From: Micromonospora coxensis | GTDB taxonomy: Bacteria > Actinomycetota > Actinomycetes > Mycobacteriales > Micromonosporaceae | Assembly: GCF_900090295.1 (NCBI RefSeq) | Contig: NZ_LT607753.1 | Coordinates: 930,001 to 994,000 of the forward strand | DNA: 64,000 nt | Direction of reading: 5' to 3' | In this document: positions 7,955 to 13,609 of the stretch, one piece after another | Position numbering within the stretch: the first letter of the stretch is position 1 | How the letters are laid out: each line of letters opens with the position of its first letter | The notes under the pieces: generated by a model | The model's database searches: none | What the model was told of the DNA's origin: nothing | Seen by the model: only the letters and a program-made list of their open reading frames with translations | Program-made: the position numbers and the translations under genes

Positions 7955-7988
7955 CTGGCCGGCACCCCGTGTTCGGGGTGCCGGCCAG
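7955..7988 (-). terminator. Terminator of the first lysozyme-like gene
   Basis: A perfect 14-bp stem (7955-7968 with 7975-7988) and 6-nt loop, 21 nt after the stop of the lysozyme-like gene. The same hairpin and flanking bases recur after the paralogue (12709-12738). Confidence 0.8.
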
Positions 7989-8009
7989 CATGCGCAGTGC
8001 GTGGGTGGG

Positions 8010-8606
8010 TCAGCTGTTCCAGTGCTCGGCGACGAGGTCGGCGGCCTGCTGCTCCCACTGGGCGTAGTGGTCGGGGTAGGCCGAGACCTGCACGGTCTGG
8101 GCGGCCTTGGTCAGCGGCATGTCCTGCCAGCCGTCGACCTGCTTCAGACCCTTGAGGAACGCCAGGGTGGAGTACTCGGGGTCGGTGATCTGCTCGACCG
8201 TGCCCCAACCGCTGGAGGGGCGCTGCTGGAACAGGCCCTGCGAGTCGTGATCGTTACGCTCACCGAGGTGGCCGAGGTTCTCCAGCTTCGACTCCTGCAG
8301 CGCCGTGGCGATCGACACCACCGCAGCCCGCTCGTCCATGCCCGCCTTCTTGGTGGCGGCGATGATCGCCTTGACGTTGCCGACCTGCTCGTCCGACAGG
8401 TCGATACGCGACTGCGCACCCTGCACACCGTGCGGAATCAGCTTGCCCTTGTCCACAGCCGACTTCTCAGCGGCCATGACGGCGACGGTCTTCACATCGG
8501 CAGCCGGGGCGGCGTGCGCCTCGGTCACCGGACCGGCGAACACACCACCGGCGAAAGCCAGACCAGCAATACCCAGAACGCTCTTACGAATGATCATGGT
8601 GTTCAT
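8010..8606 (-). CDS. Secreted lysozyme-like (transglycosylase-fold) protein, copy 1
   Basis: 198 residues. Signal peptide (about 1-32, ending AHA-A), a short spacer, then a domain of about 125 residues common in actinobacterial secreted proteins and resembling a lysozyme/lytic transglycosylase fold: AGMDERAAVVSIATALQESKL, then DHDSQGLFQQRPSSGWG and a helical C-terminus rich in Trp and Gln. Glu105 in ALQESKL is the plausible catalytic acid; that is inference from the fold. Likely role: cleavage or binding of peptidoglycan glycan strands outside the membrane. The start at 8606 is set by a GGAG box and the signal peptide; upstream in-frame starts run through the leader. Its upstream region holds two GGAAT-N18-GTT sites and a leader shared with the paralogue at 12761-13354, to which it is nearly identical over the C-terminal half. 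Confidence 0.88.
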   Translation of the reverse strand: MNTMIIRKSVLGIAGLAFAGGVFAGPVTEAHAAPAADVKTVAVMAAEKSAVDKGKLIPHGVQGAQSRIDLSDEQVGNVKAIIAATKKAGMDERAAVVSIATALQESKLENLGHLGERNDHDSQGLFQQRPSSGWGTVEQITDPEYSTLAFLKGLKQVDGWQDMPLTKAAQTVQVSAYPDHYAQWEQQAADLVAEHWNS

Positions 8607-8685
8607 AGCAAAGCTCCATTCGGGGGTCGACACACACGCGTCGCCGGGGGACGACACCGCATGCGGGGCACCTCGACAGGCGCTC
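8607..8685 (-). other. Conserved 5' leader of lysozyme-like copy 1
   Basis: About 80 nt directly before the start codon are conserved with the leader of the paralogue (13355-13435), although this is non-coding DNA. It can fold a small stem around a CCCCC loop near 8650, followed by GTGTGTGTCGACC and the ribosome binding site GAATGGAGCT. Conservation suggests a regulatory RNA element or simply recent duplication. Confidence 0.5.
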
Positions 8686-8857
8686 ACACAACAAAGGGGG
8701 GAAAGTCGATAAACCGGCTCCAGCGCAAACCCTGACCCGCTCACGGATCAGGTCACACGAGCGGGGGGGCTCGGCGATCACGGTGCGGACCATCAAGCTC
8801 GCGGTCACACCGACGGGGGTCACGTCAAGCACGGAGGCTTGCGGCGCCGGGACCATG

Positions 8858-8886
8858 TGTAACGACCGGCGGGCCACCAACATTCC
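8858..8886 (-). promoter_or_regulatory. SigR/SigH-type promoter-like site, proximal, copy 1
   Basis: On the minus strand it reads GGAAT, 18 bases, then GTTACA. This matches the GGAAT-N18-GTT consensus of SigR/SigH-family ECF sigma factors. It lies about 250 nt upstream of the lysozyme-like start codon. Confidence 0.6.
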
Positions 8887-8961
8887 GGCCCCACACCCCC
8901 GGACCAGGCCCCGGGATCAGGGCCGGTACAGCCGGGTGTGCTGCTGCGATCGTCCAGAGAA

Positions 8962-8990
8962 TGTAACGACCCCCAGCCCGCCACCATTCC
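8962..8990 (-). promoter_or_regulatory. SigR/SigH-type promoter-like site, distal, copy 1
   Basis: Second GGAAT-N18-GTTACA site, 104 bp upstream of the first in the same orientation. Bases after it (GCAGCAGCAC) match those after the distal site of the paralogue. Confidence 0.58.
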
Positions 8991-9163
8991 GCCACCCGAG
9001 TGCCCCCGACCACAGGACCCCGCACACCAACCAGACACCAACCAGACACGCGGGCCACCACAACAGCCACCCGAACCGGACACCCACCCCAGACTGACCC
9101 ACCCGCACACCACCCTCAGGTGCAATCGATGTCGCCAGAGCAGCAACAACCGCACCCGAAACC

Positions 9164-9369
9164 GGCCAACCAACCCCGTGACCCGAAGCGAACACCCCGG
9201 CCCGCGTACCCGAAACGGACACCACGGACGCCGCACGCCCGGACGGCCGCCGACCACCGACACGCGGCCGAGGTCGGCCGCCGACCGCCGACGCGCGGCA
9301 GAGGCCAGCCGCCTGAACCCGACGCGAACGCCCCCGGACGCGTACCGAGGCGGACACGGCGGACGCCGC
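9164..9369. repeat. Imperfect direct repeats of about 70 bp
   Basis: 9164-9234 and 9303-9369 align as direct repeats with several mismatches and small gaps; both contain GGACGCCGC at one end and GGCCA near the other. They lie in non-coding DNA next to the skewed tract. Confidence 0.5.
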
Positions 9370-12688: not shown

Positions 12689-12708
12689 CGGACGCCGGAT
12701 ACGCCGCT

Positions 12709-12738
12709 GGCCGGCACCCCCTGTTCGGGGTGCCGGCC
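12709..12738. terminator. Hairpin between hydrolase and lysozyme-like copy 2
   Basis: A perfect 12-bp stem (12709-12720 with 12727-12738) and 6-nt loop. It is nearly the same sequence as the terminator at 7955-7988 and here lies between convergent genes. Confidence 0.8.
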
Positions 12739-12760
12739 GGCGTGCTCAGTGCGTGGTGGG

Positions 12761-13354
12761 TCAGCTGTTCCAGTGTTCGGCGACGAGGTCGGCGGCCTGC
12801 TGCTCCCACTGGGCGTAGTGGAAGGGGTAGGCCGAGACCTGCACGGTCTGGGCGGCCTTGGTCAGCGGCATGTCCTGCCAGCCGTCGACCTGCTTGAGGC
12901 CCTTGAGGAAGGCGAGGGTGGAGTACTCGGGGTCGGTGATCTGCTCGACCGTGCCCCAACCCGAGCTCGGGCGCTGCTGGAACAGGCCCTGCGAGTCGTG
13001 GTCGTTGCGGTCACCCAGGTGGCCGAGGTTCTCCAGCTTGGACTCCTGCAGGGCGGTGGCGATGGCGACCACGGCGGCGCGTTCGTCCATGCCGGCCTTC
13101 TTCGTGGCGGCGATGATGGCCTTGGTGTTGGCGATCTGCTCGTCGGACAGCTCGATGCGCGACTGCTGGCCCTGCACGCCGTGCGGGATCAGCGTGCTCT
13201 TGTCCACGGCCGGCTTGTCGGCCTGCACGGCCACCGCGGCCGGCGTCGTCTCGACCGGAGTACCGGTGTCGTGGTTCAGCGGGCCGGCGGCGAGGCCACC
13301 GGCGACGGCGAGACCAGCGATACCCAGAACGCTCTTCCGCATGATGGTGTTCAT
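12761..13354 (-). CDS. Secreted lysozyme-like (transglycosylase-fold) protein, copy 2
   Basis: 197 residues, paralogue of the gene at 8010-8606. The signal peptide starts MNTIMRKSVLGIAGL, then a variable Thr/Val-rich spacer, then the conserved domain: KKAGMDERAAVVAIATALQ, ESKL with candidate catalytic Glu104, NDHDSQGLFQQRP, SSGWG and the Trp/Gln-rich C-terminus. The C-terminal 90 residues are almost identical to copy 1, while the spacer after the signal peptide (about 25-50) differs, so divergence is concentrated in the exported linker. Start: ATG 13354 after GAATGGAGCT. The same promoter-pair, leader and terminator as copy 1 surround it. Peptidoglycan cleavage is the expected activity but is inferred only from the fold. 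Confidence 0.88.
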   Translation of the reverse strand: MNTIMRKSVLGIAGLAVAGGLAAGPLNHDTGTPVETTPAAVAVQADKPAVDKSTLIPHGVQGQQSRIELSDEQIANTKAIIAATKKAGMDERAAVVAIATALQESKLENLGHLGDRNDHDSQGLFQQRPSSGWGTVEQITDPEYSTLAFLKGLKQVDGWQDMPLTKAAQTVQVSAYPFHYAQWEQQAADLVAEHWNS

Positions 13355-13435
13355 CAGACAAGCTCCATTCGGGGGGTCGACACACACGCGCGTCGTGGGG
13401 GACGACATCGCGCGCGGGCACCTCGACAGGCGCTC
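13355..13435 (-). other. Conserved 5' leader of lysozyme-like copy 2
   Basis: Counterpart of 8607-8685. Here the proximal promoter site lies about 60 bp further up, so the whole predicted leader is about 130 nt; copy 1 carries roughly 110 extra nt between promoter and conserved block. A stem GTCGT/ACGAC around CCCCC flanked by CGCGC/GCGCG can be drawn. Confidence 0.5.
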
Positions 13436-13491
13436 GAAGGCTTTGGGGCCCGGCAGCACAGGCGACACAGGTTCGCGGCGCCGGGACCATG

Positions 13492-13520
13492 TGTAACGAC
13501 CGCCCACCGGCCGGCATTCC
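13492..13520 (-). promoter_or_regulatory. SigR/SigH-type promoter-like site, proximal, copy 2
   Basis: GGAAT-N18-GTTACA on the minus strand, followed by CATGGTCCCGGCGCC exactly as after the proximal site of copy 1. The predicted start is about 130 nt before the start codon. Confidence 0.6.
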
Positions 13521-13580
13521 GACCCACGCGATCCGCCTCGGGCCTGGCAGCGGGGGGTGCTGCTGCGGTCGTACAGAGGG

Positions 13581-13609
13581 TGTAACGACCCCGCCCCGGC
13601 CACCATTCC
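13581..13609 (-). promoter_or_regulatory. SigR/SigH-type promoter-like site, distal, copy 2
   Basis: GGAAT-N18-GTTACA, 89 bp upstream of the proximal site in the same orientation. Flanking bases match the distal site of copy 1. Confidence 0.58.

Follow-up and report, generated by a model that had tools for sequence, protein, structure and literature searches.

Why should a bacterial chromosome hold two genes for almost the same exported muramidase, each with matching promoter-like sites, leader and terminator-like hairpin, within one short stretch of DNA? The question is raised by a window of 64,000 nucleotides (nt) from Micromonospora coxensis, positions 930001-994000 of a complete 6.77-Mb chromosome (genome label G000; contig NZ_LT607753.1, RefSeq assembly GCF_900090295.1). 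A first, sequence-only reading took the two genes, here named A and B, for a module duplicated as a unit and probably deployed together, with different spacers. The answer favoured here, with a probability of about 0.72, is that A and B belong to a set of dispersed muramidase cassettes that evolve in concert and are fired together by an extracytoplasmic function (ECF) sigma factor, probably SigR. The two genes are the following:

8010..8606, minus strand: gene A (type A), predicted exported GH184-type muramidase of 198 amino acids, one of five near-identical genome copies (alignment, PDB match)
12761..13354, minus strand: gene B (type B), predicted exported GH184-type muramidase of 197 amino acids, with a near-identical copy at G000:C1:5701981 (alignment)

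Copy number and fixed positions

Regarding copy number, G000 has seven close copies, five of type A (97-100% identical to gene A) and two of type B (83%); a longer relative is 67% identical, and five further matches are more distant. The spacer is nearly the same in the five A copies, so the spacer difference separates group A from group B and does not support different roles for the two neighbours. Seven to nine close copies occur in each of six genomes; a match at an expectation value (E) of 1e-40 or better is found in all 121 genus genomes searched, with 1-12 matches each and at least two in 113 of them, counts in which many assemblies are fragmented and the longer relative can be included. 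Named relatives are nearly all from Micromonospora, and a relative at E 1e-30 is present in 78 of the 81 family genomes; 12 genomes from six other genera (g10, g20, g32, g34, g36, and g37) have 5-15 matches each, some of them distant, and the amplification is therefore wider than the genus.

The places of these copies are largely old. For 46 copies with flanks from six complete genomes, a position was counted as shared when at least one flank had at least 800 nt aligned; 42 of them have at least one such flank in common with a copy of another species. Of the positions, three are occupied in all six genomes (for one of these, G086 is assigned by its upstream flank only) and the others in two to four; the positions of A and B are also adjacent in G038 and G096. 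Two copies of G064 (L197 and L198, at G064:C1:4432759 and 4518853) have swapped flanks, the upstream part of one position standing with the downstream part of another, which suggests exchange between copies, with rearrangement of the chromosome through cassette recombination.

The seven close copies of G000 and the longer relative all lie on one chromosome strand; strands are mixed in the other complete genomes. The longer relative (L008, G000:C1:287318-287785) has its like in eight other genomes, at 66-72% identity, and is at most a few kb from one copy in each of the nine; perhaps it is related to the set and has escaped conversion.

Homogenisation within genomes

The gene tree groups by genome, with 8 label changes (the least possible being 5) versus 30.3 in shuffles, on position groups that were set by hand from the flank comparison, as they were for divergence; G064 and G096 form single groups, and G000 and G038 have two changes each. 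In 155 within-genome pairs, alignment covers 86-100% of the positions between -350 and +590 nt relative to the start codon and 78% of the 66 nt that follow the stop codon, and identity is 0.89-0.97 from -350 to +660; further upstream, to -900, coverage drops through 47%, 31%, and 20% to 7%, and downstream of +660 it is 8% at most. The 71 ortholog pairs, from which four singletons and both rearranged copies of G064 are excluded, can be aligned through the flanks as far as 3.5 kb, with 17-80% of positions covered at an identity of 0.82-0.89; their cassettes, at 0.81-0.91, are less alike than those of the paralogs. These values come from pairwise alignment, which replaced a fixed-window identity profile that length changes made too noisy in the flanks; in that profile the regions outside the cassette did not separate paralogs from orthologs.

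At fourfold sites, divergence is 0.131 within genomes versus 0.305 between genomes; silent sites are homogenised too, so that selection on the protein is no explanation. Taken from the sequences, the dispersed cassettes evolve in concert, and we infer gene conversion as the process behind it.

As for the window pair, fourfold divergence has a median of 0.056 among the five A copies of G000, is 0.009 in the B pair, and reaches 0.333 between A and B. The two stand in separate conversion groups, A with four distant copies and B with the copy at 5.70 Mb; it follows from these figures that the pair is old and that each member has been homogenised mainly with far copies. A recent local duplication is rejected in view of the 0.333, and the duplicated pair of the sequence-only reading gives way to two members of a seven-copy, genome-wide set, in separate groups and 33% apart at fourfold sites. 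The claim that everything was copied as a unit survives in part: promoters, leader, gene, and hairpin do go together and the control region is homogenised, though not by local duplication. Copies elsewhere with unrelated flanks, which the same reading held to speak against it, gave a mixed picture, near flanks being the same and outer flanks unrelated.

A trace of exchange between the groups is a swapped serine-codon pair, which in G000 two of the five A copies have in common with both B copies and the other three A copies lack. This block occurs in none of 30 readable copies of five other genomes, nine more being outside the reach of the search pattern; we take it for the footprint of conversion joining groups A and B.

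Concerted evolution is known for bacterial repeated genes such as the ribosomal RNA (rRNA) operons and tuf, and rhs and PE_PGRS are reportedly further cases. As in these systems, paralogs within a genome are more alike than orthologs; unlike in them, homogenisation here extends to a complete expression cassette that includes the promoters, the leader RNA, and the terminator hairpin. Bacteria would then keep scattered, complete expression cassettes, switch and enzyme together, uniform over megabases outside rRNA, and the set offers a system for measuring the rate and direction of conversion, with the flanks as natural controls.

Organization of the cassette

Around the two genes, the cassettes of the window contain these elements:

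7954..7989, minus strand: gene A terminator-like hairpin, 15-bp arms (sequence, fold)
8611..8687, minus strand: gene A leader RNA, with P1 hairpin, P2 hairpin with C-rich apical loop, C-tract, and ribosome site (covariance model R1, E 3.1e-12; covariation)
8861..8886, minus strand: gene A proximal promoter-like site, GGAAT-N18-GTT (motif)
8965..8990, minus strand: gene A distal promoter-like site, GGAAT-N18-GTT (motif)
12706..12741, minus strand: gene B terminator-like hairpin (sequence, fold)
13360..13437, minus strand: gene B leader RNA (covariance model R1, E 1.3e-11)
13495..13520, minus strand: gene B proximal promoter-like site, GGAAT-N18-GTT (motif)
13584..13609, minus strand: gene B distal promoter-like site, GGAAT-N18-GTT (motif)

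The A and B regions align at 85.7% nucleotide identity over a 756-nt block that runs from the terminator hairpin through the gene and into the leader, and their promoter-like stretches align as well, at 80% over 95 nt and 100% over 28 nt. Several points of the sequence-only reading are confirmed by this comparison: the non-coding flanks do match, GGAAT-N18-GTT stands at two places before each gene, the leader of about 80 nt is in both an element of 77-78 nt that matches the covariance model, and the proteins diverge most in the spacer C-terminal to the signal peptide, at about residues 25-60. The terminator hairpin is retained with a reservation. A hairpin lies 3' of both genes, and the fold of the 87 nt 3' of the stop codon is stronger than random (mean of -52.5 kcal/mol in 46 copies versus -37.6, standard deviation 7.0, in random 87-mers of the flanks); no T-run was seen by eye after it, and for this reason it is called terminator-like only. 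Between the proximal promoter and the leader, copy A has about 116 nt more than copy B, and of this extra sequence about 75 nt are also missing from the other four A copies.

Promoter-like sites and the probable sigma factor

Promoter spacing was measured in 129 distinct 500-nt upstream regions from the genus, excluding loci shorter than 6,400 nt plus L027 and L030. GGAAT-Nk-GTT occurred 271 times at k = 18, three times at 17, four times at 19, and at most three times at each other spacing from 10 to 27; the reverse strand had one match each at 17 and 18. Every one of the 129 regions has an N18 site and 116 have at least two, and the letters after GTT are ACA (170), GGA (36), GTA (20), GAA (20), or GCA (12). 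A GTTAC-binding regulator was considered as the reader of these sites and discarded because of this variation. Outside the genus, the N18 site precedes the best-match loci of ten other family genera in 15 of 16 cases, L254 having too little upstream DNA.

The consensus of Streptomyces SigR, in the part consulted of PMC9205884, is GGAAT-N18-19-GTT, and the core is also that of Corynebacterium SigH in the corresponding part of PMC10012870. G000 has a SigR ortholog (351.8 bits, over the cut-off), with GGAAT-N19-GTT 273 nt upstream of the match, and motif and spacing suggest that SigR controls the sites before the muramidases. From the proximal GTT to the start codon, copy A has 255 nt and copy B 141 nt, which places the leader inside the expected transcript. 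As far as those two sources describe the SigR and SigH thiol-stress regulons, the likeness lies in the GGAAT-N18-GTT core and in a sigR gene with its own site; the difference lies in the targets, which are here exported wall-hydrolase-type genes in many near-identical copies, mostly with at least two tandem sites. An excerpt of PMC4367926 reports a roughly tenfold rise of SigR and its anti-factor at an early stage of Streptomyces germination; by analogy, a link to a muramidase pulse is suggestive only.

A set shared with C39-type peptidases

The strict form of the site, GGAAT-N18-GTTACA, occurs 23 times in G000 and never in a backwards control; the same control in eight other genomes gave one match. 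Of the 130 strict sites across the nine genomes, 119 precede the two hydrolase families: 83 are at most 650 nt ahead of a muramidase relative and 36 ahead of a relative of the C39-type peptidases (PF13529, E 1.2e-21); the other 11 are elsewhere. The strict form is missing from the muramidases of G112, G119, and G060; one copy of each was read, and in it GTT is followed by other letters. C39 genes in G000 have up to five sites in a row, some not strict, and of five copies in this genome two are 100% alike and a third is 97%. From these shared sites, the muramidases and the secreted C39-type peptidases are predicted to be one regulon, which names a testable set of wall-hydrolase-type genes in an antibiotic-producing genus.

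The C39 genes at G000:C1:331442, 1468235, and 2074929 are 97-100% alike, each behind 3-5 tandem GGAAT-N18-GTT-like sites about 50-60 bp apart. Another GGAAT-N18-GTTACA (L058, G000:C1:3794055-3794083) is beside a transporter gene, and a similar sequence is present once in each of eight other genomes; it is possibly an operator rather than a promoter.

The leader RNA

The leader starts about 77 nt before the start codon and ends within a few nt of it; it has a GCGCC-loop-GGUGC hairpin (P1), a hairpin of variable length with a C-rich loop (P2), and then CCCCCG-AAU-GGAG. From 140 upstream regions, 126 leaders of this pattern were obtained, 57 once near-duplicates were removed, and 47 entered the model; L018, L150, L026, and L079, then L021, L028, L140, L034, L121, and L148, were left out. 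In the 47 leaders, 91.8% of the cells in P1, P2, and the inner stem are paired, versus 84.2% when shuffled, and covariation is 0.343 versus 0.208; neither value was reached in any of 500 shuffles. Among 99 matches fitted to the model (90 distinct), 11 of 16 pairs are changed on both sides, in 180 cells versus 50.9, in an alignment that leans to the covariance model. The covariation signal is lost when partners are slid by 1-3 columns; it mostly supports P2, as P1 varies little. The two C-tracts, in the P2 loop and before the ribosome site, are each found in 89 of the 90 distinct leaders.

Two other features were tried and rejected. Long-range pairing that hides the ribosome site appeared in single-sequence folds, and its covariation was 0.107 versus 0.113 shuffled, a value reached in 337 of 500 shuffles. 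An upstream reading frame is unlikely to be conserved, since the lengths of the leaders modulo 3 are spread as 44, 32, and 25.

Regarding distribution, the model matched 95 of 100 chosen sources at E 0.001 or better, with no match in L028, L136, L141, L143, and L145. In G000, eight places score E 3.7e-8 or better, namely those of the seven muramidases and of one C39 gene; after these, the best match is at 0.135. C39 genes in two other genomes (L079 and L232) carry both the leader and promoter-like sites. A search of the 81 family genomes with stricter filters gave matches at 0.01 or better in 7, namely in three of the four that belong to the genus, in G121 and G175, where the match precedes muramidases, and in G130 and G158, where it is weak and precedes neither hydrolase family. 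Several other genera have low-scoring matches in the right place.

Rfam release 15 gave no match to the leader at gathering score, and none overlapping it even at E 5-10, so that a candidate RNA family with strong covariation is added. The cyclic di-AMP (c-di-AMP) riboswitch, ydaO, precedes cell-wall hydrolase genes in Actinobacteria; the muramidase leader resembles it as a leader RNA before wall hydrolases and differs in that no Rfam match overlaps it.

The encoded enzyme

A PDB search with the protein returned the GH184 muramidases 8b2h (E 3.4e-13, residues 62-189) and 8b2e (E 8.3e-11). Glu105 and Asp119 of gene A align with Glu41 and Asp66 of KsGH184 (PDB 8b2e), which the part consulted of PMC10394673 gives as active-site residues, Glu41 being the catalytic one; the same part mentions bacterial GH184 members without a wall-binding domain. 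On the strength of this relation, A and B are probably muramidases. A Pfam search of both proteins found no wall-binding domain and matched SLT_3 below its cut-off; an NCBIfam search gave no name; and AlphaFold, with 11 sequences, reached a mean predicted local distance difference test score (pLDDT) of 64.1, with a better helical core. Compared with KsGH184 and TtGH184, as far as described in that source, the catalytic domain matches, the active-site Glu and Asp align, and a wall-binding domain is likewise missing; unlike them, the proteins here are bacterial, occur in many near-identical copies, have a short N-terminal spacer, and fall below the SLT_3 cut-off. All names given by the sources among the 120 listed relatives are "hypothetical" or "secreted protein", and no title on this muramidase family was found in the open-licence Micromonospora literature, judged by title only.

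Proposed mechanism and alternatives

The proposed cassette of about 1 kb would consist of at least two tandem SigR-type promoters, the leader RNA, a signal peptide with a GH184-type domain, and a terminator hairpin. Cassettes at mostly fixed positions would be overwritten from sister copies by gene conversion, promoters and leader included, leaving switch and enzyme much alike within a species and drifting together between species. An ECF sigma factor tied to stress or germination, with SigR as the likely one, would fire about 20 near-identical promoters at once, and tandem promoters multiplied by several copies would give a large pulse of exported muramidase and peptidase, opening the wall, for instance at germination, while the leader RNA would set translation or stability for the pulse. 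The enzymes may instead serve attack on neighbours or general wall turnover.

Several observations weigh against this proposal. An orthologous flank is missing for 4 of the 46 copies; homogenisation is incomplete, with three tree changes in G094 and four in G086, and at positions alpha and iota the copies of these two genomes group by position. Nine of the 11 remaining strict sites are alike, one per genome, that of G000 being beside the transporter gene. The strict site is missing in 21 of 67 muramidases (counted without the longer relative L008, its like, and more distant matches) and in 30 of 52 C39 relatives (all matches used), among which older C39 genes may be outside the regulon. Finally, the same consensus may be readable by other ECF factors.

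As for the history of the set, a mobile cassette spreading by transposition would account for a compact unit of about 1 kb in several near-identical copies per genome, and for the four copies without orthologous flank; it is hardly credible, being largely refuted by the flanks shared by 42 of 46 copies with another species and the three positions occupied in all six. Fresh duplication in each species, a birth-and-death process without gene conversion, would explain why the genes cluster by genome; it predicts new places or tandems, and what is found instead is old positions common to the species and, in G000 only, a codon block that joins A and B copies, which leaves this process improbable. 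The concerted evolution of dispersed cassettes proposed here has its own choice to make about the regulator. That an ECF factor other than SigR reads the promoters, such as a paralog dedicated to the regulon, is a possibility to be taken seriously, although we lean away from it: the SigH_actino model has 26 matches in G000, one of them over the cut-off, networks of related ECF factors exist in Streptomyces (according to an excerpt of PMC6767563), and the spacing is almost strictly 18 here versus 19 at the site of sigR itself; against it, the core fits the SigR consensus and that of Corynebacterium SigH. The GTTACA boxes could also be binding sites of an MtrA-type regulator and not promoters, in view of the 13 sites before G000 muramidases at which GTTACA follows GGAAT-N18; this is very unlikely, since other species have GGA, GTA, GAA, or GCA after GTT and what stays constant is GGAAT, GTT, and the spacing of 18.

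The job of the leader can be viewed in two ways. It may merely stabilise the mRNA or present the ribosome site, responding to no trigger, which we rate at even odds: it ends a few nt from the start codon and the pairing that would hide the ribosome site has no covariation support, while two covarying hairpins and two C-tracts kept in nearly all distinct leaders seem beyond the need of a plain stabiliser. Alternatively, and only tentatively, it could be a new class of regulated cis-acting RNA of GH184 muramidases and some C39-type peptidases, sensing a ligand, small RNA, or protein through the two C-tracts; conversion would then keep switches across the genome near-identical, and one signal would set the dose of wall lysis.

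Surroundings of the two genes

The genes between A and B are outside the repeated unit: one is MazG-like, one is of the glutamate-dehydrogenase type (PF00208, E 1.5e-88), and a third has weak hydrolase matches under the cut-off. Downstream of gene A, positions 7692-7742 of the window form an inverted repeat whose arms of 23 bp, free of mismatches, enclose a loop of 5 bases (two matches in no shuffle); the stretch that holds it is also present at the copy G000:C1:274066.

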